Assembly (NCBI RefSeq): GCF_000332055.1
Contig: NZ_ALVZ01000227.1
Location: 1 to 64,000, forward strand
Reading direction: 5' to 3'
Length of the DNA stretch: 64,000 bases
Source: Xenococcus sp. PCC 7305
GTDB lineage: Bacteria > Cyanobacteriota > Cyanobacteriia > Cyanobacteriales > Xenococcaceae
Every line of letters starts with the position of its first letter. The first letter of the stretch is position 1. Below the pieces are notes generated by a model that ran no database searches, was not told the DNA's origin, and worked only from the letters and a program-made list of their open reading frames with translations. Positions 1 to 44,769 of this stretch are shown piece after piece. A program made the translations under genes and the position numbers.

Positions 1-2320
<2,320 letters not shown>

Positions 2321-2418
2321 TTAGTGTGATTTTGAGGGTTTTGTCTGAATTCAAAATAGATGAATGAAATGGTTTAAAGAAAACTAATTTTCTTCATGAG
2401 CTTATTCTGCTAATTCAT

Positions 2419-2460
2419 ACTCGTTATGAGTTTATATTCTTAATCATACTCATTATGAGT
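2419..2460. promoter_or_regulatory. Two PerR-like operator boxes upstream of katG
   Basis: ACTCGTTATGAGT (2419-2431) and ACTCATTATGAGT (2448-2460) are 13-bp palindromes, 29 bp apart. The second is perfect (6-1-6). The same half-site recurs before the peroxiredoxin (32760) and the Fur-family gene (44301). Assignment to PerR is inferred from the peroxide-defence genes sharing it. Confidence 0.6.
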
Positions 2461-2556
2461 TTGTCCTCGTAGTATCTTGATAAAACTTTACAAAGCAGCT
2501 CATCACTGAAGTAAAGGTTATAGCTCCAGCAACTCAAAATTTTCCATTTCAGTCTA

Positions 2557-2574
2557 TGATAATGATTATCATTA
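2557..2574. promoter_or_regulatory. Zur box upstream of znuABC
   Basis: TGATAATGATTATCA is a perfect 7-1-7 palindrome of the Fur/Zur type, ending about 37 bp before the chosen znuA start. Placement directly before a zinc importer points to Zur rather than Fur. It also argues against the TTG at 2584 as start, because that codon lies only 10 bp after the box. Confidence 0.8.
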
Positions 2575-2610
2575 GATTTAAACTTGAATGTTCATTGTCA
2601 TAGTCATAAT

Positions 2611-3591
2611 ATGTCATCCCATTTATTAAAAAATTCCAGAATTGACTCTTTAAAAGGTTCTCTAATGGCAATCTTGACCTGTCTGAATACTGTAGCGCTT
2701 ATTCCCGCAACCACAGCCCAAGATAATCCTAGCCCCAAGATTGTCACAACTTTTCTGCCAATTCATCTGTTCACCAAAGCTGTCGTAGGAGATACAGCAG
2801 ATGTAGAGATTTTGATTTCTCCTGGAACGGAAGTCCATGACTATCAAGCCACGCCTGCAGATGCCAAACTGTTAGCACAAGCAGATGTGTTGGTAGAAAA
2901 TGGCTTGGGGATGGAAGAATTCTTATCAGCCTTAGTAGCCAATGCAGGGAATTCTGGTTTACAGCAAATTGATGCTAGTAAGGGAATCGAAGTAATAGAA
3001 GGAGAAGAGGAAGACGAACATGGGCATCATGAGGGAGAACATGGACATCACGACGAGCACGGACATCATGGACATCATCATGAAGAAGGAAATCCCCATG
3101 TCTGGTTAGACCCAGTTTTGGCACAACAACAAGTAGCTAATATTAAGGATGCGTTAATTGAAATTAACCCTGATAACGCCGACATTTATAGTAGCAATGC
3201 CGATTCTTACATTCAACAATTGCAACAGCTAGACAATGAATTTCAGCAAAGACTAGCACCAGTAAAAGGTTGTAAATTTATTACTTTTCATGATGCTTTT
3301 CCCTACTTAGCGCAACGCTATGGACTTGAACAAGAAGCAATCATCGAGATTCCTGAAGATAGCATGACACCGAAAGATATTCGACGAGTACAAAAAGCAG
3401 CTAAAAAATATGAAGTCAAAGCTTTATTCACCGAACCTGGAATAGAAGACCAACGTATTCAACAGATATCCAGCGATTTAAATCTACCACTAGAAGAAAT
3501 CGATCCTCTAGAGTCAGGAGAAACCGATCCCCAATATTATTTTCAAACTATGCGACAGAATTTGGAAGCTTTAGAGAGAGGATGCCAATAA
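2611..3591 (+). CDS. znuA: Zinc ABC transporter substrate-binding protein ZnuA
   Basis: Periplasmic zinc-binding protein (326 aa) that delivers zinc to ZnuBC. It has a hydrophobic N-terminal signal region ending near TTAQ. The cluster A-I metal ligands are visible: His in TTFLPIHLF, His in NPHVWLDP, His in TFHDAFPY and an acidic residue in FTEPGIEDQ. Between them lies a His/Asp/Glu-rich loop (nt about 3019-3090), typical of zinc-specific members. I chose ATG 2611 because a TTG at 2584 would abut the Zur box; ATG 2665 is also possible. It is the first gene of znuABC and probably repressed by Zur when zinc is sufficient. Confidence 0.93.
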   Translation: MSSHLLKNSRIDSLKGSLMAILTCLNTVALIPATTAQDNPSPKIVTTFLPIHLFTKAVVGDTADVEILISPGTEVHDYQATPADAKLLAQADVLVENGLGMEEFLSALVANAGNSGLQQIDASKGIEVIEGEEEDEHGHHEGEHGHHDEHGHHGHHHEEGNPHVWLDPVLAQQQVANIKDALIEINPDNADIYSSNADSYIQQLQQLDNEFQQRLAPVKGCKFITFHDAFPYLAQRYGLEQEAIIEIPEDSMTPKDIRRVQKAAKKYEVKALFTEPGIEDQRIQQISSDLNLPLEEIDPLESGETDPQYYFQTMRQNLEALERGCQ

Positions 3592-3699
3592 ATCATTGAC
3601 CATTGAACATTAAATATTAAATAATGCTCAAGCAACCGATAAATGATCAACGCTGAATTTTTAGCCTCCTAATCTTATCTTTTTAAGCAACTAAATTTG

Positions 3700-4488
3700 A
3701 TGCCGCAAAACTTATCTCTTACCCAAGCTATTGTTCAAGTTAGAAATCTATCGGTGATGTTTGGAGAGTATTTAGCAGTAGAAAATGTCTCTTTTGAATT
3801 GCTAACCGGTACTCACACAGCGATTATTGGTCGTAATGGTGCGGGTAAAAGTACCTTAATTAAGACTATCTTGGGATTAATTGAAACGCAATCAGGGGAG
3901 ATTAAGTTATTTGACTCTACTGGCAAACAGCTAGAAACATTAAGGCAAGATATTGGTTATATTCCCCAAAAATTTCTCTTTGATCGCACTTTCCCTTTAA
4001 CAGTAATGGAGTTTGTGGCTTTAGGATTAAATAGCAAAGAGTTGTGGTACTCCAGAAAAAGAAAAAAAGAAACAATTTACCAAGCATTGGAAAAAGTGAA
4101 TCTAACGAAACAAGCTCGTCAACAAATTGGTACTCTTAGCGGAGGAGAACTAAAACGACTTTTATTGGCTTATTGTTTAGTTAGTCCCCGTCGTCTATTA
4201 GTTCTAGATGAAGCTTTAGCGGGAGTGGATGCTACCGGAGAAATAGAATTTGCTGCTTTGCTCAATAATCTCAAACAGGAACATAATTGGACAATTTTGG
4301 AAGTTTCCCACGATCTAGATTTAGTTAGCAAACATTGTGACTCAGTTATCTGTTTAAACCGTCGGTTACTCTACCAAGGTGCTCCCTCCACTATTCTCAC
4401 ACCAGAAAATCTTTTACATATATACGGATCTTTAGTTAGCCCCACTTGTCATCATCATGAACCTAGCCGACTTCCTGAGTCTTTTTAG
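3700..4488 (+). CDS. znuC: Zinc ABC transporter ATP-binding protein ZnuC
   Basis: ATPase subunit (262 aa) of the zinc importer. Walker A (GRNGAGKST), the ABC signature (LSGGELKR), Walker B (LLVLDEALAGVD) and the switch His (EVSHDLD) are all present. The C-terminus ends in a small HHH cluster that could bind metal. The reading frame overlaps the start of znuB by 32 nt, indicating translational coupling. ATG 3700 is preferred over the adjacent TTG at 3697. Confidence 0.93.
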   Translation: MPQNLSLTQAIVQVRNLSVMFGEYLAVENVSFELLTGTHTAIIGRNGAGKSTLIKTILGLIETQSGEIKLFDSTGKQLETLRQDIGYIPQKFLFDRTFPLTVMEFVALGLNSKELWYSRKRKKETIYQALEKVNLTKQARQQIGTLSGGELKRLLLAYCLVSPRRLLVLDEALAGVDATGEIEFAALLNNLKQEHNWTILEVSHDLDLVSKHCDSVICLNRRLLYQGAPSTILTPENLLHIYGSLVSPTCHHHEPSRLPESF

Positions 4489-5272
4489 TTTACCTTTTAT
4501 GCAGCGAGCAGTAATAGGTGGCGTGCTGTTGGGTATTTTAGGGGGAATTTTGGGCAGTTTTCTCATACTACGTCGTCTCTCTTTATTTGGTGATACCGTA
4601 GGGCATTCGGCAATGCTAGGAGTAGTTTTGGCTGCCTTGTTAGAACTTCCCGCTACTTGGTCATTAATCGGTTTTACCGTTGCTTTTGGTTTAGGAGTAA
4701 TTTATCTAATCGACAGAACCAATCTAGGCAGTGATACGGTTTTGTGTATTGCCTTATCGGGTTCGGTTGCTTTAGGGACGATTGTTTTTAGTTATTTAAA
4801 AGGATATCGAGGTAATCTATTATCGATTTTGTTTGGAGATATTTTGGCTATTAGTAATACAGATTTAATTTTATTATTATTACTCTTAGTTATAACTTTG
4901 GTTTGGTTAGCTATTAGTTTGCCAGAGCAAATTTTGCTGACCCTTAACAGCGATTTAGCTTTAGTTAAAGGTGTATCTGTTCAAAACCATCGTTATTTTT
5001 TTATCGTTCTTTTAGCAATTACTATTGCGCTGACTATTCGCGCTGTTGGGATCTTGCTTCTTAATGGCTTTCTCGTGATTCCTGCTGCGAGTGCCAGATT
5101 AGTTTGCCAGCAATTTGTACCATTTTTAGCTACTGCTGCGGGGATAGGTGCGTTGAGTGGAGTAATGGGAATGATTATCTCTGGCGCGATCGATCTGCCT
5201 AGTGGGCCAAGTATTGTTTTGGTTCAACTATTTGGGTTTTTAGCTGTGGCTTTATGGTGTCGGCAGGGTTGA
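4457..5272 (+). CDS. znuB: Zinc ABC transporter permease ZnuB
   Basis: Integral membrane subunit (271 aa) of the ABC-3 metal permease family, with about eight hydrophobic segments. The conserved GDTVGHSAMLGV region is near residues 38-50 and the typical AIGVLLLNGFLVIPAASARL-like stretch is in the C-terminal half. It completes the znuABC operon behind the Zur box. Confidence 0.92.
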   Translation: MNLADFLSLFSLPFMQRAVIGGVLLGILGGILGSFLILRRLSLFGDTVGHSAMLGVVLAALLELPATWSLIGFTVAFGLGVIYLIDRTNLGSDTVLCIALSGSVALGTIVFSYLKGYRGNLLSILFGDILAISNTDLILLLLLLVITLVWLAISLPEQILLTLNSDLALVKGVSVQNHRYFFIVLLAITIALTIRAVGILLLNGFLVIPAASARLVCQQFVPFLATAAGIGALSGVMGMIISGAIDLPSGPSIVLVQLFGFLAVALWCRQG

Positions 5273-10869: not shown

Positions 10870-11946
10870 TCAACCAAAACCTTTCCCTCGCTTAGACTCA
10901 GACCAAATAATCAACTCCCCACCCTGACCGCCAGCAGCCAACCATTTGCCATCATGACTCCAATCCAGACAGGAAAAACCACGAGACGCGCCTTCTAATA
11001 TTTGTCCTACTTGTTTGGCTTTTGTCCACAAACCCAACCAACCATCATCCGCAGCAGAAGCGAGTAATGAGCTATGGGGATGAAACTCTAAAGCTTGAAT
11101 CTTACTCTCGTGTAAATCTAAAACGCGAGCATTCCAACCATCGTTGTCGTTAGCTTCTTTTTTCCAAACGGCAATTCCTTCGATGCTCGATGCTGCCAAT
11201 AAAGGTGCCTTGTTTGATAATCGTTGCGACCAAGTTAAATTAGAAATCTTACCAGGAAAACCCTGCATTACCCAAGGATGGGGACTTCCGTATTCTAAAA
11301 CGGCAATGGTATTATCTAAATTTCCAGAAGCAATATATTTACTGTCCCCAGACCAAGCTGTCACAATACTAGCTGAGGGCATATCAATAATATATGGTTC
11401 ATCATCCCAGTCTTGAGTAGACCATATTTTTACTCCCCCATTACCCGCGATCGCAAGATTCTCTCCATTCGGTCGCCAAGCTAAATCTAAAACAGAAGAG
11501 TTAGCAAAGGGTAGAGTCGTTATCACTGTTTGACTATCAGCATCCCAGATTTGCACATAACGCCCTAAACTAAAGGCTAAATAGTTACAATTAGGACTCC
11601 AAGCTAGTTTATCGACCCAGGTCGGAGCATTATCTAGAGTAGCGATTAATTTCACTTCTTTTTGAACAGAGTTAGGGAAAATCGCCCAAACTCTAACCCT
11701 GCCATCCTGTCCCCCAGCAGCTAAAAACTTGCCATCAGTAGAAAAAGCCAAACAGTCTATTGAAGCTATATCTGCAGGTAATAAATTAACTAAACTGCCA
11801 TCTTGCAATACAATCACTTCTCCCGCAGCCGAACTAGCAGCTAATAAACCATCGGAAGACCAAGCAACTGCGGTGACATATTCTGAAAGAGCATCCTGCC
11901 ATTGTTGCTGAAATAAGACTTTTCCCTTCGTGCCTAAACCAAACAT
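10870..11946 (-). CDS. WD40-repeat protein paired with CobW GTPase
   Basis: A 358-aa beta-propeller protein with about seven WD40-like units (for example LAFSTDGKFLAAGGQDGRVRVWA, LAWSPNCNYLAFSLGRYVQIWD, LDWSHDGKWLAAGGQGGELIIW). No signal peptide is seen, so it is probably a cytosolic scaffold. Its ATG lies inside the last codons of the CobW gene (13-nt overlap), so the two are translationally coupled and should act together. With the Zur-like box before cobW it probably belongs to the low-zinc response. The molecular role is not known to me. Confidence 0.85.
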   Translation of the reverse strand: MFGLGTKGKVLFQQQWQDALSEYVTAVAWSSDGLLAASSAAGEVIVLQDGSLVNLLPADIASIDCLAFSTDGKFLAAGGQDGRVRVWAIFPNSVQKEVKLIATLDNAPTWVDKLAWSPNCNYLAFSLGRYVQIWDADSQTVITTLPFANSSVLDLAWRPNGENLAIAGNGGVKIWSTQDWDDEPYIIDMPSASIVTAWSGDSKYIASGNLDNTIAVLEYGSPHPWVMQGFPGKISNLTWSQRLSNKAPLLAASSIEGIAVWKKEANDNDGWNARVLDLHESKIQALEFHPHSSLLASAADDGWLGLWTKAKQVGQILEGASRGFSCLDWSHDGKWLAAGGQGGELIIWSESKRGKGFG

Positions 11947-12902
11947 TGTTTAAAGTCCTCTCTCAGTTCTGCCTCATCCAGATTGCGACCGATAAAGACT
12001 AATTCGTTCTTACGGGTCTCTCCTTCCTTCCAAGGGCGGTCTGGTTTGCCATCAAACAGCATATGCACTCCTTGGAAAACAAGGCGATCGCTTTCTCCTG
12101 CAATATTTAAAATACCTTTCATGCGAAAGATATCTACCCCTTTAGTTTGCAGTAAGTTACTCAACCAGTCATTTAGTTTTTGTCCGTCTAAGGCTCCAGA
12201 TTCTACTATGGCAAAAGATTTGACTGTCTCATCATGTTCGTGAGCATCTTCGTTGAGAAATTCGGGATCAATTTCTAAAGCACGGTCTAGATCAAATGCC
12301 TGGACTCCTAACAACGCATCCATCGACAATTCAGAGTTTTGGGTGCGATAGATTTTTGCCATTCCGTTCATGGCTTTAATTTTACTTTCCAAGTCATCCA
12401 ACTCTTGGGGACTGACAAGATCGGTTTTATTAAGAAGAATCACATCGGCAAAGGCAATTTGTTCTTGTGCTTCCTCCGCCGACCAATGTTGCTGAATATG
12501 TTTAGCATCGACTACTGTAACTACTGCATCCAAGGCAATCTTATTTTTCATGTCTTCATCGACAAAAAAGGTTTGAATTACCGGAGCAGGGTCAGCCAAC
12601 CCAGTAGTTTCAATGACCAAATGGTCGAATTGGTTACGACGCTTCATTAAGTTACCGATAATGCGAATCAAATCACCCCGCACTGTACAGCAAATACAGC
12701 CGTTATTCATTTCAAAGATTTCTTCATCGGCATCAATTATCAGTTGATTATCAATCCCCACTTCGCCAAACTCGTTTACGATGACTGCTACTTTCTTCCC
12801 ATGTTCATAGGTGAGGATGCGATTGAGGAGGGTGGTTTTTCCCGCACCTAGATAACCTGTAAGTACGGTCACGGGGACGGTGTTGTTGGTTGTCGCTACC
12901 AT
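11934..12902 (-). CDS. CobW/COG0523-family GTPase, probable zinc metallochaperone
   Basis: A 322-aa G3E GTPase with P-loop GYLGAGKT (residues 16-23), metal-binding CICC motif (69-72), ETTGLADPAP switch, NKTDLV base-recognition motif and a His/Asp-rich segment (NEDAHEHDETV) near the middle. COG0523 proteins under Zur control are thought to allocate zinc to client enzymes when it is scarce. The palindrome 23 bp upstream of the start resembles a Zur box, which supports zinc rather than cobalt or nickel. Confidence 0.88.
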   Translation of the reverse strand: MVATTNNTVPVTVLTGYLGAGKTTLLNRILTYEHGKKVAVIVNEFGEVGIDNQLIIDADEEIFEMNNGCICCTVRGDLIRIIGNLMKRRNQFDHLVIETTGLADPAPVIQTFFVDEDMKNKIALDAVVTVVDAKHIQQHWSAEEAQEQIAFADVILLNKTDLVSPQELDDLESKIKAMNGMAKIYRTQNSELSMDALLGVQAFDLDRALEIDPEFLNEDAHEHDETVKSFAIVESGALDGQKLNDWLSNLLQTKGVDIFRMKGILNIAGESDRLVFQGVHMLFDGKPDRPWKEGETRKNELVFIGRNLDEAELREDFKQCLV

Positions 12903-15022: not shown

Positions 15023-15634
15023 TTAAATCAATTCGGCTCTTGCCTGAGTGAGAACTTTTCCCGCGGACTGAGCAAAAACCACAGTGAGGAATAGCCCTAA
15101 AATGAAATCTGGCAAAAATGAGTTGGTTACAAATACCAATCCAGCCGTTAGCAACACTGACGTATTGGCAATAATGTCATTGCGGGAACACAACCAAACT
15201 GAAGACATATTTACATTGTCATTACGGTGACGAATCAAAAGTAAAAAGCAGATTAAGTTCGCGACTAAAGCTAAAATACCAATCTCACTCATTAGTTGAA
15301 CTGCGGGAACGGTTTGAGCAAATAGCTGATAACTAGCTCTGGCAAATACAGCGATCGCAGTTAGAAACATAATACCCCCTTTGAGTATTGCCGATCTCGC
15401 CTGAGCTTTTTTGCCTTTTGTAATAACGTAAAGGCTACAGCCATAAACTAACGCATCGCCCAGCATATCGAGGGAATCACCCGTTAGAGACAAAGAAGCG
15501 GCTTTAATTCCTCCGCTAAACTCGACTACAAACATCACCGCATTAATCACCAAAATAATCCATAACACTTTACTCTGGCGTTTTTGCAGTTTTTCTAATT
15601 CCTTTGCTTTATGTTGACAACAATGTTCTGCCAT
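15023..15634 (-). CDS. Short CDF-type cation efflux protein
   Basis: A 203-aa membrane protein with about six transmembrane segments. SLTGDSLDMLGDALVYG and SRNDIIANTSVLL carry the Asp/Asn-type metal-site residues of cation diffusion facilitators. The cytosolic C-terminal domain of classical CDFs is absent. The N-terminus MAEHCCQHKAKE could bind metal. ATG 15634 is preferred to an upstream TTG because the latter falls inside the operator palindrome. Probable substrate is Zn or a related divalent cation, expelled under control of the ArsR-type sensor encoded 1 kb away. Confidence 0.8.
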   Translation of the reverse strand: MAEHCCQHKAKELEKLQKRQSKVLWIILVINAVMFVVEFSGGIKAASLSLTGDSLDMLGDALVYGCSLYVITKGKKAQARSAILKGGIMFLTAIAVFARASYQLFAQTVPAVQLMSEIGILALVANLICFLLLIRHRNDNVNMSSVWLCSRNDIIANTSVLLTAGLVFVTNSFLPDFILGLFLTVVFAQSAGKVLTQARAELI

Positions 15635-15650
15635 TTTTTTTGTTACAACG

Positions 15651-15702
15651 TTCAAATGATTGTTTGAATAATATTCATGATAACCTTCAAACGTTCAAAA
15701 GT
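15651..15702. promoter_or_regulatory. ArsR/SmtB-type operator before the CDF gene
   Basis: TTCAAATGATTGTTTGAA (15651-15668) and the perfect palindrome TGAATAATATTCA (15665-15677) overlap, followed by TTCAAACGTTCAAAAG. Imperfect TGAA-TTCA repeats of this kind are the classic target of SmtB/ZiaR/CadC repressors, and such a gene lies at 16657. Confidence 0.65.
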
Positions 15703-16656: not shown

Positions 16657-17019
16657 CTAAACTAACTCCTGCAAAGAATAGCTAAGAATATCGGTTACAC
16701 GTCGATCTTTTAAAGAATAGTAAGCGAGTTTGCCATCATTACGATACTTAAGCAATTTTAAATCCCGCATTTTCCGTAGATGATGAGAAGCAGTAGCGAT
16801 CTTAACATTTAACATCGCGGCAATATCGCAAACACAAAGCTCATCGCCGTTTCTTAGTGCATAAAGGATTTTAACTCGCGATCGATCCGCTAAAGCACCA
16901 AAGATAATAATCATTTCCTCTAAAGTGTCTTCTGAGGGTAGAGTTTCCCTAAGTTGAGTAACTAACTCAGTGTTGAAACATCTTACCTGACAAAGATCGT
17001 CTGTTTTGGTTTTGCTCAC
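16657..17019 (-). CDS. AztR/CadC-type ArsR-family metal sensor
   Basis: A 120-aa winged-helix repressor. It has an N-terminal CQVRC (Cys10, Cys14) and CVC in the alpha-3 helix (ELCVCD, Cys62 and Cys64), the four-Cys alpha3N site of CadC and AztR. The alpha-5 site His residues of SmtB/ZiaR are missing (LKDRRVTDILSYSLQEL), so it should sense thiophilic ions or zinc through alpha3N only. The DNA-recognition helix reads IATASHHLRKMRDLKLLKYR. The start is GTG. The likely target is the operator at 15651 before the CDF exporter. Confidence 0.87.
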   Translation of the reverse strand: MSKTKTDDLCQVRCFNTELVTQLRETLPSEDTLEEMIIIFGALADRSRVKILYALRNGDELCVCDIAAMLNVKIATASHHLRKMRDLKLLKYRNDGKLAYYSLKDRRVTDILSYSLQELV

Positions 17020-20112: not shown

Positions 20113-20385
20113 ATGACCAACAAAAAGAATCTTGTCCTAGTTGGTCATCAAGTCCTCGAACTGATTGCACAGAAAGATGTATCGGGCGAGTGAAATTTAG
20201 TTACCTTCTGCGAAGAACCTCGCATTATATAAGATCGCGTTAACTCTAGCGGATACTTGTCAGGCAAAACCACCGCAGCTCTAACTTTAGTTGAGCCTGG
20301 CTATTATCAGGATAATATTGTATTAATTCATATTGACGATCGCATCCTAACAGAAAAAATCAACCGATCGCCAAGCTTGATTTAA
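20113..20385 (+). pseudogene. NirB-like nitrite reductase large-subunit N-terminal remnant
   Basis: One frame of 91 codons, including two internal stops, reads MTNKKNLVLVGHQVLELIAQ, then TFCEEPRII-stop-DRVNSSGYLSGKT and LVEPGYYQDN. This follows the FAD-binding N-terminus of NirB-type reductases (KLVxVGNG...FCEEPRxAYDRVxLSxYF). The Rossmann GNGMVG loop is deleted, and only about 90 of some 800 codons remain. Assignment is from remembered family consensus. The 3' end overlaps the neighbouring oxidoreductase by 26 nt. Confidence 0.6.
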
Positions 20386-21571
20386 CAATTGCTGGCACAA
20401 TGCGTTGACAAGCCATTTTCCCACCACCGATATTTCTCGCCACAGGGCCAACTCGTAAAGCAGCCAAGCCACCCATAATAAAAAAGTTTGACTTGGGTAA
20501 ACGTAAATGTTCATCTAATACCGGTAAACCGTTAACTATTTTTGTGGGATAAGTCTCTAATACATCTTGCAATAAAGGATGTTCGGTAACGTTAAATCTT
20601 GTACCAGTAGCCAACCAAATACGGTTAAACTGATGCTTCCCACCATCAAGACAATTAACCTGCCAAAGATTATCTTGCCACTGTGCATCACTAACTTGAC
20701 AGCATTCATTGATTATCACTTTACCTTCACGAGTTGCTCTTCTCAATTGCAGCATTATTTCAGGAGTCATCGAACCGCCATTACGGGCTTGCTTTATTTG
20801 CTGATAACGGTCATTCCAATTTATTGCAGCGTGAAAATCTTTAAGGTATTTTGGCCCTAACCAACCAGGATCGGCATCAAAGATTTTTTCTTGTATTTGT
20901 TTTCTGGTCATAAGAGTAACAGTTGCCCCCATATTTATCGCACCTTTGGCTAAATGTCCGCTAGTTAAGCCGCCACCAACGATTAGAATCTTTTCTCCTT
21001 TGAGGTTGAGTTGATTTAAATTTACCTGTTGAGAATGACATAGTTTATCGGTCGGATAATTTGATGTAATTCTTTCTGCCCAATTAGGAAGCTGAACTTT
21101 ACCACTTCCTGTAGCCAATACAACTCTACGGGCGATAATAGTTTCCCCGGTACTTAAAATCAATCGAAACCGAGAACGAGAAGCAAGTGTAATCGGTAAA
21201 ATGTGAATTACTTTGGCTGGATAAACCTTATTCTCTAAATTCCAGCGGTGAATTACCTCATGACAAAAATCGTTAAATAGCTTGGTTCCTGGTCTGTCAT
21301 AGGGAGGGAATAGCTCATTATGTCTATTCTTGGCAAAGGTTCTTAATTGATGCGGATTAGGATCGGGATGATGGACAGCAGGCGATCGCAAGTGAGGAAT
21401 TTGTTGTGCTGCAAATTGTCGCTGCCATTGACTCAGCCAGGTTTGACTCGGATCAAAAACTAGTAATTTATGATAATAATCTTGCCTTTTTTGTAATAAA
21501 TGGGTGGTTAAAGTTAGAGCCTGAACTCCTGCCCCAACAATCGCTAGGTCTATATATTTGGGTAATTTCAC
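20360..21571 (-). CDS. FAD/NAD(P)-binding oxidoreductase (SidA/IucD-like), Zur-linked
   Basis: A 403-aa flavoprotein with a first Rossmann motif AIVGAGVQALTL (residues 11-22), a second nucleotide-binding motif ILIVGGGLTSGHLA and an ATGT motif (IWLATGTRF). Layout resembles L-lysine/L-ornithine N-monooxygenases of siderophore pathways and PF13454 proteins. No peptide synthetase or siderophore synthase is nearby. It is divergent from the His-rich porin and shares an intergenic region holding two Zur-type boxes, so a role in zinc scavenging is inferred. The substrate is unknown. Confidence 0.8.
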   Translation of the reverse strand: MKLPKYIDLAIVGAGVQALTLTTHLLQKRQDYYHKLLVFDPSQTWLSQWQRQFAAQQIPHLRSPAVHHPDPNPHQLRTFAKNRHNELFPPYDRPGTKLFNDFCHEVIHRWNLENKVYPAKVIHILPITLASRSRFRLILSTGETIIARRVVLATGSGKVQLPNWAERITSNYPTDKLCHSQQVNLNQLNLKGEKILIVGGGLTSGHLAKGAINMGATVTLMTRKQIQEKIFDADPGWLGPKYLKDFHAAINWNDRYQQIKQARNGGSMTPEIMLQLRRATREGKVIINECCQVSDAQWQDNLWQVNCLDGGKHQFNRIWLATGTRFNVTEHPLLQDVLETYPTKIVNGLPVLDEHLRLPKSNFFIMGGLAALRVGPVARNIGGGKMACQRIVPAIVKSSLAIG

Positions 21572-21584
21572 TCGCCAGTAATAA

Positions 21585-21632
21585 TGATAATGATTCTCTA
21601 TCTCATTATCTAATATATAATAATGATTATCA
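21585..21632. promoter_or_regulatory. Two Zur boxes in the divergent oxidoreductase-porin promoter
   Basis: TAATAATGATTATCA (21618-21632, arms match 6 of 7, with the inner palindrome AATGATTATCATT) lies 33 bp before the porin start. TGATAATGATTCTCT (21585-21599) lies 14 bp before the oxidoreductase start. Each gene therefore has its own box. Confidence 0.75.
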
Positions 21633-21664: not shown

Positions 21665-23434
21665 ATGAAAAATCAACTTTGGGGAACTTACTTGCTAAGC
21701 CCTCTATTTTTAGCTGCTCTCTTCGTCCAGAGTAATGGGGTATCGGCCCAGGAAATTGATCAATATGACATTGAACAATACAGCTCAGAGTTAAATTTAG
21801 AAAGCGCAGAATTAAATCAAGTTACCAATGTCAATCAATTACGGGATGTTTCTCCTGCGGATTGGGCTTATGACGCATTACGCAGTTTAGTAGATCGTTA
21901 TGGTTGTATTGTTGGTTATCCAGACCAAACTTTTAGAGGCGGGCAGGCTTTAAGTCGTTATGAGTTTGCTGCGGGTTTGAATGCTTGCTTAAATCAAATC
22001 GAGCGACTAATTGCCTCTTCTGAAGCGGTATTAAGAGAAGATATTGAAACGATCAATAGATTACTTCAAGAGTTTGAAGCGGAACTGGCGTCCCTAAATG
22101 GTCGAGTTGATAGTCTCGAAGGCCGGGTAGCTTTTCTCGAAGATCATCAATTCTCTACTACTACCAAGTTAAAAGGAGAAACCAGTTTTGCTCTCAGTCA
22201 AGTTTTTGGCAACGAAAAAGCTGATGGCAGTGGTGGTCTTGATAGTATTACCGTTTTCAATTTTCGCTCTCGTTTGAATTTCAACACCAGTTTTACCGGT
22301 AAAGATCTTTTAAAAGTGCGGCTAGATGCTCTTAATACGGTTCCCTTTGGTTCAGGAGAAGAGGAAGACGATCCGAATGTTACGGGTACAGGGATGACTC
22401 GTACTGCTTTTGATGAAGGTTCTGATGGTTCAGTACGTGTGGGCAAACTTTACTATACTTTTGCCATTGGAGAATCAGGTAAATCTGGACATTCAGATCA
22501 TGATCATGATGCTCACGGACATGATGATCACGGGCATGACGAACATGGTCATGGGAAAGACAAACATGGCGGTCATTCGGAACATCTCCACGGAGCGGCA
22601 GAAGGAAAACTTTCGTTTGTGATTGATGCGGTTGGTGGAGAATTTAACGAAAACTTTGCCAACTATAACGAGTATTTTTCGGAGGAATTAACGGGCGCAA
22701 TTTCTCGTTTTGGCCGTTTTAACCCTATCTATTATCAAGGTTTAGAAGGAACAGGCGCCACAGTTAATTATAATTTTAGCGATGCTGTTGCTTTTTCTGT
22801 GGGCTATCTGGCACCTCGTGCTAGCGAACCTCTTGAGGGGGCAGGTTTATTAAATGGCAGTTATGCTGCGATCGCCCAGTTAAGCTTAGAACCTACTGAT
22901 AGATTAGGCTTTGGCTTAAATTATTCACGGGGTTATTATGCACCAGGCGAGTTAGTAGTCTCAGGAGAAACCGGAAGCGAAACGGCCAATGCACCCTTTG
23001 GAGACGATACTGCTACTACTGCGGATCATCTTGGTTTACAGGGTAGGTATCAAATTAGCGATCGCCTTAATATTTCTGCTTGGGGTGGTGTAAGTTTTGC
23101 TAACGCTCAAACCGATGGCAATAATGATGGGATTACTGTTAATAGCGGTGACAATGCCACTATTTACAACTGGGCAGTAACTTTAGCTTTTCCCGATCTC
23201 TTTGCCGAAAGAAGTTTAGGAGGTATTGTTTTCGGACAACCACCAAAAGTTAGTAGCAATGATAGTGGCGCAGAGGATGACGATAGTGCTTGGCATATTG
23301 AAGCCCAGTATCGCTATCAAATTAATGACAATATTGCGATTAATCCTGGATTTTTTGTGGTGATTAACCCCGAAAATAATAGCGATAACGACACGATCTA
23401 TGTGGGGACAATTCGCACCATTTTCGAATTTTAG
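21665..23434 (+). CDS. SLH-domain porin with His-rich loop, probable zinc-related outer-membrane channel
   Basis: A 589-aa outer-membrane protein. It has a signal peptide (LLSPLFLAALFVQSNGVSA), an SLH domain at about 60-110 (LRDVSPADWAYDALRSLVDRYG), a short coiled coil (LLQEFEAELASLNGRVDSLE) and an OprB-type beta-barrel ending in Phe. Residues about 274-310 (nt 22488-22598) are a His/Asp/Gly tract with some fifteen His residues, not part of the usual barrel. Its own Zur-like box lies just upstream. It probably raises outer-membrane permeability to zinc under limitation. ATG 21665 is preferred to GTG 21656 because it begins the signal peptide. Confidence 0.88.
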   Translation: MKNQLWGTYLLSPLFLAALFVQSNGVSAQEIDQYDIEQYSSELNLESAELNQVTNVNQLRDVSPADWAYDALRSLVDRYGCIVGYPDQTFRGGQALSRYEFAAGLNACLNQIERLIASSEAVLREDIETINRLLQEFEAELASLNGRVDSLEGRVAFLEDHQFSTTTKLKGETSFALSQVFGNEKADGSGGLDSITVFNFRSRLNFNTSFTGKDLLKVRLDALNTVPFGSGEEEDDPNVTGTGMTRTAFDEGSDGSVRVGKLYYTFAIGESGKSGHSDHDHDAHGHDDHGHDEHGHGKDKHGGHSEHLHGAAEGKLSFVIDAVGGEFNENFANYNEYFSEELTGAISRFGRFNPIYYQGLEGTGATVNYNFSDAVAFSVGYLAPRASEPLEGAGLLNGSYAAIAQLSLEPTDRLGFGLNYSRGYYAPGELVVSGETGSETANAPFGDDTATTADHLGLQGRYQISDRLNISAWGGVSFANAQTDGNNDGITVNSGDNATIYNWAVTLAFPDLFAERSLGGIVFGQPPKVSSNDSGAEDDDSAWHIEAQYRYQINDNIAINPGFFVVINPENNSDNDTIYVGTIRTIFEF

Positions 23435-44334: not shown

Positions 44335-44769
44335 ATGAAACAATCAGAGGCAAATATCAAGCCAATTACTTCCTTTGACCAAGCGATCGCTCGTTGCCAA
44401 GAATTGGGGATGCGAGTCAGTCGTCAAAGACGCTATGTCTTAGAATTGCTGTGGGAAAAACAAGAACATCTTTCCGCCAGAGCAATCTATGATCTTTTAA
44501 ACCAAGAAGGAAAAGAAATCGGCCACACGTCAGTTTACCAGAATCTAGAAGCATTGTCTGGTCAGGGGATTATCGAATGTGTAGAAAAATCCGACGGGCG
44601 ACTCTACGGAAATATCAGCTACTCTCATAGCCATGTTAATTGTCTCGATTCGGACAAGATTATTGATGTGAATGTTACCTTGCCAGAAGATTTGCTCAAG
44701 AAGATCGAAGAGCAAACAGGAGTCAGCATCACAGACTACCGTATTGACTTCTTCGGCTATAAGCAATAA
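44335..44769 (+). CDS. perR: Fur-family peroxide regulator, PerR/FurC type
   Basis: A 144-aa Fur-fold repressor: winged helix LGMRVSRQRRYVLELLWEKQ with recognition helix EIGHTSVYQNLEAL, and dimerisation/metal region LYGNISYSHSHVNCLDSDK. The paired CxxC structural zinc motifs of Fur and Zur are absent, as in the cyanobacterial FurC/PerR group (SHSHVNCLD). The shared promoter motif with katG and the peroxiredoxin supports the PerR role. It is probably not the Zur that acts on the zinc boxes. Confidence 0.82.
   Translation: MKQSEANIKPITSFDQAIARCQELGMRVSRQRRYVLELLWEKQEHLSARAIYDLLNQEGKEIGHTSVYQNLEALSGQGIIECVEKSDGRLYGNISYSHSHVNCLDSDKIIDVNVTLPEDLLKKIEEQTGVSITDYRIDFFGYKQ

Follow-up and report, generated by a model that had tools for sequence, protein, structure and literature searches.

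A flavoprotein gene with Zur-type promoter boxes, linked to zinc-uptake genes, in Xenococcus sp. PCC 7305 and its relatives

The closest described counterparts of the gene considered here come from two bacteria. In PCC 7002, the accessible text of an expression study reports that hemB-II, folE-II, G0131 and G0132, the last a FAD-dependent oxidoreductase, are up in a zur deletion, and that they rise sharply on TPEN (PMC4628125). In C. glutamicum, according to a second report, the gene for the putative oxidoreductase Cg0795 is divergent from the COG0523 gene cg0794, carries two Zur sites and is bound by Zur in vitro, and the authors suggest that Cg0795 and the cg0794 product act together (PMC2823685). 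A Zur review names Cg0795, and gives 'hemB2, folE2 (+2 more)' for PCC 7002 (PMC6103462). Already known, then, from the accessible text of these sources, are single Zur-regulated genes in PCC 7002 (PMC4628125) and C. glutamicum (PMC2823685). The main text of a further paper makes no mention of a flavoprotein, an oxidoreductase or FAD (PMC10957091), and our literature search, with most subscription journals outside its scope, found no description of the flavoprotein family.

The DNA analysed here, which we call the window, is a stretch of 64,000 nucleotides of Xenococcus sp. PCC 7305 (contig NZ_ALVZ01000227.1, positions 1 to 64,000). The flavoprotein gene reads on the reverse strand from a GTG start at 21571 to a stop codon at 20360-20362, and it shares the window with znuA-znuC-znuB (2584-5269) and a COG0523 gene (11937-12902), both of which were absent from the preliminary description of this DNA. 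The features to which we refer are as follows.

2557-2571, no strand assigned: exact Zur-type box, TGATAATGATTATCA, preceding znuA
2584-3588, forward strand: ZnuA-type zinc-binding protein
3697-4485, forward strand: ZnuC-type ABC ATPase
4457-5269, forward strand: ZnuB-type ABC-3 permease
11937-12902, reverse strand: COG0523/CobW-family GTPase (cobW and CobW_C)
16660-17019, reverse strand: ArsR/SmtB metalloregulator, a homolog of which accompanies the flavoprotein gene in 8 of 17 close relatives
20363-21571, reverse strand: predicted FAD/NAD(P)-binding flavoprotein, 403 aa, GTG start
21585-21599, no strand assigned: Zur-type box 2, TGATAATGATTCTCT, two mismatches, between the flavoprotein start and box 1
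21618-21632: Zur-type box 1, TAATAATGATTATCA on the forward strand, one mismatch
21665-23431, forward strand: SLH/OprB porin (NCBIfam 'iron uptake porin'), divergent from the flavoprotein gene, whose loop has 13 His within 40 aa

A CDF-type cation transporter of 210 aa (15026-15655) is also encoded in the window, and is kept near the flavoprotein gene in 6 of the 17 close relatives.

The record of plasmid pAQ7 of PCC 7002 lists hemB, folE, three genes and then the FAD/NAD(P)-binding gene RS15860, whose product is 56% identical to the window flavoprotein over 400 aa. Because this gene order matches, we take RS15860 to be SYNPCC7002_G0132. The PCC 7002 gene has an exact Zur-type box 45 bp upstream and belongs, by the accessible text, to the zur- and TPEN-responsive cluster (PMC4628125). 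It sits on pAQ7 with hemB-II and folE-II, whereas the window flavoprotein gene pairs with a porin instead. As for Cg0795, its layout as given in the accessible report is that of several cyanobacterial and haloarchaeal flavoprotein loci, a likeness of layout and description only (PMC2823685); the sole hint of homology is the presence of NAD_binding_9 matches in C. glutamicum.

Across cyanobacteria, the gene was found in just 53 of 386 genomes (E 1e-30) and is thus an accessory gene. In nine of the 17 close relatives it is directly divergent from znuA (our loci L002, L007, L008, L009, L010, L012, L013, L016 and L017). Forty of the 53 genomes were sampled as loci across the phylum, with a stretch of at most 7 kb fetched on each side, several being shorter than this on one side. 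COG0523, ZnuA, ZnuB, HemB, FolE or HisI lay nearby in 28 of these 40 loci, and such zinc markers were missing from the fetched stretch in the other 12. COG0523 genes were present in 20 of the 40, where about 0.75 would be expected (271 COG0523 genes in 41 genomes of ∼5.3 Mb each). A CobW_C-bearing P-loop protein was encoded in 21 of the loci and a metallophosphoesterase in 20.

Relatives beyond the cyanobacteria were detected by tblastn on plasmid records, at 22-31% identity. Fifteen such records are non-cyanobacterial, and we examined the contexts of 11 (leaving out H13, H14, H20 and H22). Nine of the 11 relatives, at 25-31% identity, lie beside zinc or metal ABC transporters, annotated GTP-binding proteins, or paralogous S14 or HisI. 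The Metabacillus relative has a COG0523 gene (CobW by Pfam) and an S14 gene nearby, and that of Pseudalkalibacillus an annotated GTP-binding protein, a permease and a TIGR03943 protein; the latter is counted among the nine by its GTP-binding annotation, the Pfam CobW check covering the Metabacillus protein only. The Haloferax relative has a GTP-binding protein, S14 and HisI nearby. Those of Halorubrum, Haloarcula and Halorientalis are immediately 3' of a metal or zinc ABC transporter, while in Natrialba, Natronosalvus and Halovenus the divergent neighbour is a GTP-binding protein gene, after which comes S14. There was no zinc context at the Salinigranum relative, nor at that of S. aureus, which adjoins a Na+/H+ antiporter operon.

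Some further features of these loci were noted in passing. The S. aureus relative (L094, 28% identity) has a one-mismatch Fur/Zur-like box 24 bp upstream of its matched start (7992). At three haloarchaeal loci a DUF7124 protein (PF23439) is encoded immediately 3' of the flavoprotein (L097 7229-7633, L099 8244-8624 and L100 8277-8657), and it is possibly a partner of the haloarchaeal flavoprotein. Natrialba (L102 8344-9591) and Natronosalvus (L103 8424-9668) each carry a second, diverged flavoprotein copy beside the first. Viral contigs scanned with a diverse family profile yielded no relative.

The best explanation as a whole, which we hold with middling confidence, is that Zur controls the flavoprotein as part of the response to zinc limitation, and that this FAD/NAD(P)H enzyme works on a small molecule alongside ZnuABC and COG0523 proteins. 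A serious rival, possible but in our view doubtful, is zinc sparing: the flavoprotein would be an isozyme that does without zinc and replaces a zinc-dependent oxidoreductase, as with HemB-II, FolE-II and the S14 and HisI paralogs. Its position in islands rich in duplicate genes (HemB at 14 and FolE at 16 of the 40 sampled loci, S14 and HisI paralogs in haloarchaea) is consistent with such a role, as is the co-regulation of the PCC 7002 ortholog with hemB-II and folE-II in the accessible text of that study (PMC4628125). However, no zinc-dependent counterpart of the flavoprotein is apparent, and its tie to the zinc transporter, in loci of the Crocosphaera type and in haloarchaea, fits a part in zinc handling at least equally well. 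Since the gene is linked most tightly and most widely to the zinc transporter and to COG0523, we prefer a role in the handling of zinc, or of a zinc ligand, to one as a substitute for a zinc enzyme.

What kind of enzyme this might be was approached through the protein itself. Two glycine motifs are present, GAGVQA at residues 13-18 and GGGLTS at residues 199-204, and their glycines G13, G15, G199 and G201 are invariant in all 24 members of the family alignment. Other family-wide invariants include LRS (61-63), V66, P94, F99, W237, R255, R263, ATG and N380. The Pfam matches above cut-off are NAD_binding_9, Pyr_redox_2, Pyr_redox_3 and Lys_Orn_oxgnase (PF13434). The PF13434 match scores below that of NAD_binding_9 and is partial (27.4 bits against a cut-off of 21.3, residues 97-263, profile positions 95-262 of 339); at E 1e-3 this model matches 17 of the 24 members, while a true N-hydroxylase (NMO) scores 394 bits. 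No NCBIfam model came near its cut-off. No transmembrane segment is apparent, the top 19-residue hydropathy window reaching 1.31 near residue 7. An AlphaFold2 model, built on an alignment of 18 close homologs, was too poor for use (pLDDT 48.7, pTM 0.41). Our conclusion is that the flavoprotein is very probably an enzyme that binds FAD and NAD(P)H.

Another reading is that the flavoprotein uses NAD(P)H to reduce disulfides or some other oxidised thiol ligand, so keeping zinc-binding cysteines in reduced form. In its favour, Pyr_redox_2 and Pyr_redox_3 match 24 and 23 of the 24 members respectively, and mycothione and thioredoxin reductases are among the best PDB matches, though over only ∼100 residues. 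Against this, no column of the alignment is conserved as Cys, the best having Cys in 14 of 24 members, so that there is no redox-active pair, and we consider this reading unlikely. A disulfide reductase of the TrxR, GR or Bdr kind was rejected for want of a conserved redox-active Cys. The flavoprotein shares the two-dinucleotide-domain superfamily with YpdA/Bdr-type and FMO/BVMO-type flavoproteins, but differs from them in approaching no curated NCBIfam cut-off and in its lack of a conserved Cys; moreover, the reductases and Baeyer-Villiger enzymes among the 60 PDB matches shown, the best of them included, cover only ∼100-120 residues.

The family profile, made from the 24 members and used for both the PDB and the profile comparisons, finds its longest match among the same 60 in PvdA (3s5w; profile positions 8-336, E 2.8e-8). 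Compared profile to profile with six cyanobacterial siderophore N-hydroxylases, it aligns over 382 columns (probability 97.4, E 1.5e-11, 18% identity). Together with the two glycine motifs and the PF13434 match, these results uphold the N-hydroxylase-like arrangement of two dinucleotide-binding motifs that was first remarked on for this gene. In a control with single sequences against the family profile, an N-hydroxylase gave E 4.4e-7 (309 columns) and a YpdA-like flavoprotein 1.4e-6 (305 columns), with other flavoproteins at 3.2e-5 to 0.29 and reversed sequences at 0.035 or worse. Because the YpdA-like flavoprotein scores nearly as well, the kinship to N-hydroxylases is not exclusive, and BLASTP against the N-hydroxylase of PCC 7002 returned nothing significant, so the link rests on profiles. 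Judged from sequence, the flavoprotein is a member of the wider superfamily of two-dinucleotide flavoproteins; N-hydroxylases are among its nearest kin, but not clearly alone in that.

The comparison of active-site residues with PvdA and other NMOs gave a divided answer. The NAD(P)H-type glycines are present, as are the His of the HS motif (H179, kept in 23 of 24 members) and the ATG motif (24 of 24). Absent are the Asn of GxGxxN, whose column holds A, G or S in all 24 members and N in all six NMOs, the Gln of GxGQSA and the Tyr of ATGY, the last motif being a hallmark of NMOs. The residue after ATG is T in the window flavoprotein, and T in nine, F in eight, S in two and N in one of the 20 members (of 24) listed. 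With regard to K69, N254 and N284 of PvdA, which we take to be substrate-contact residues, the invariant R62 (24 of 24) aligns with K69 in all three MAFFT modes and in hhalign, a column that discriminates weakly given that the cyanobacterial NMOs used carry A there; the N254 column is a gap in the flavoprotein, and that of N284 is ambiguous between alignments.

These residues bear on the idea, suggested by the preliminary description, that the flavoprotein might be an N-hydroxylase making a zincophore. Speaking for that idea are the full-length profile match, the PF13434 score above cut-off and the Zur-type control. But the hallmark residues are missing, and no metallophore partner genes accompany the gene. 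The earlier remark that no siderophore genes lie near the flavoprotein held among the 25 window proteins scanned, none of which is a siderophore or metallophore protein, and none of the genes listed as recurring beside the flavoprotein in the 60 clustered loci is a metallophore partner; the production of a metallophore thus found no backing in either set. The true N-hydroxylase of PCC 7002 lies within an IucA/C siderophore cluster and has no significant pairwise similarity to the flavoprotein, and the whole Xenococcus genome has no homolog of a siderophore N-hydroxylase at E 1e-20. TonB/siderophore-uptake genes do occur near the orthologs carried on plasmids of PCC 7002 and Leptolyngbya, at a distance of a few kb. 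We therefore regard a zincophore-making N-hydroxylase as quite unlikely. The flavoprotein has in common with the siderophore N-hydroxylases (PvdA, SidA, KtzI, DesB and IucD; PF13434) the full-length profile match, the HS motif and ATG, but it departs from them in the three residues above, in its gene neighbours and in its control; it is very probably not a siderophore N-hydroxylase.

The evidence for control by Zur comes from the promoter, from orthologs and from gene linkage. The flavoprotein and porin starts are 93 bp apart, and the divergent promoter of ∼90 bp between them holds both Zur-type boxes, found with the pattern TGATAATNATTATCA; the box at 21618-21632 lies upstream of both genes, 46 bp from the start of the flavoprotein and 32 bp from that of the porin. 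The window contains 24 sites with at most three mismatches to this pattern, against 8.25 expected from shuffles. A search of the whole 5.9 Mb of the genome gave 19 sites with no more than one mismatch, compared with 12 for the reversed pattern as control, and a single site of this quality is therefore weak on its own. Exact sites number just two in the genome, one before znuA in the window and one between two COG0523 genes on contig C114. The latter contig carries three COG0523 genes with one exact and three one-mismatch boxes (∼1882-4903, 11530), and is probably a second zinc-starvation island of the Xenococcus genome.

Conservation of the box was assessed in the 250 bp upstream of the flavoprotein gene in 60 cyanobacterial loci, being 63 loci minus three non-cyanobacterial rows (L094, which had a one-mismatch box, L095 and L097). 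The best match has at most one mismatch in 37 loci and at most two in 45. As a control we took 339 regions upstream of other long ORFs in these loci, some of them zinc genes; the best match had at most two mismatches in 29. The 60 loci are not all independent (L011 and L054, with contigs both 18,595 long, are probably one genome, and L085, L087 and L093 are close Picosynechococcus plasmids), and in 15 of them a box with at most two mismatches is missing. The Zur-type sites reported earlier in the flavoprotein promoter are thus confirmed, as boxes with one and two mismatches, and a box with at most two is kept in 45 of the 60 loci.

Cyanobacterial Zur and Fur boxes are alike, so the letters of the box alone cannot tell the regulator, and our assignment comes from orthologs and linkage. 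The shared box shape, together with the name 'iron uptake porin' given to the divergent gene, could suggest an iron- or Fur-regulated, or otherwise unrelated, oxidoreductase whose zinc link is coincidental. Such a reading is extremely improbable, since the gene is linked to zinc genes not only in cyanobacteria but also in Bacilli and haloarchaea, and the expression of the ortholog in the zur mutant and under TPEN, as given in the accessible text, contradicts iron-only regulation and favours the zinc control first proposed for this gene (PMC4628125). The genome encodes three regulators of the FUR family, which NCBIfam does not tell apart, and we infer that they include the cognate Zur. By eye, their features suggest a Fur (His-rich), a PerR-like protein (window 44335-44763, without CxxC pairs) and a Zur-like protein (L135). 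In Crocosphaera watsonii a gene like L135 lies ∼2.4 kb downstream of the flavoprotein gene, in the order znuB-znuC-znuA / flavoprotein / SmtB / Zur-like. From all of this, the flavoprotein gene is very likely regulated by Zur, by direct binding as we predict.

The divergent porin is unusual in its histidine content: none of the genome's 11 other porins has more than three His in 40 aa (one non-porin row, L130, having been dropped), and among seven porins compared only the window and L018 copies have the His-rich loop. It is possibly a zinc-selective outer-membrane porin, and we regard it as a candidate. Porins lacking the His-rich loop are found near the flavoprotein gene in other lineages (L065 13836-15185, box with no mismatch; L086 1056-2729, one mismatch).

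In the mechanism that we propose, the flavoprotein would be an enzyme of the cytosol that binds FAD and NAD(P)H and belongs, as a conserved component, to the Zur response to zinc limitation. With ample zinc, Zn-Zur would occupy the boxes between the flavoprotein gene and its divergent neighbour, the His-rich porin gene in Xenococcus and znuACB or COG0523 elsewhere, and both would be repressed; in zinc shortage, both would be made. The enzyme would use NAD(P)H and bound FAD, most likely in monooxygenase-type (flavin-hydroperoxide) chemistry, the case for an oxygenase being to our minds an evenly balanced one. Its substrate would be a small molecule of the cytosol, most likely a zinc binder or a compound connected with the zinc-allocation step of ZnuABC and COG0523; we offer this zinc-ligand or zinc-allocation substrate tentatively.

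Zur regulons are generally taken to comprise importers, chaperones of the COG0523 family and proteins that replace zinc-dependent ones without needing zinc themselves. More speculatively, and with considerable doubt, the family in cyanobacteria, Bacilli and haloarchaea could be a redox arm of zinc starvation that makes, remodels or breaks an intracellular zinc ligand, or modifies a zinc-site metabolite. If so, scarce zinc imported by ZnuABC would be passed on with COG0523 proteins. The flavoprotein is small and soluble and has an ortholog in a genetically tractable cyanobacterium (PCC 7002), and the recurrence of a flavin enzyme beside such genes in both bacteria and archaea would point to an unexplained redox step in the zinc economy.
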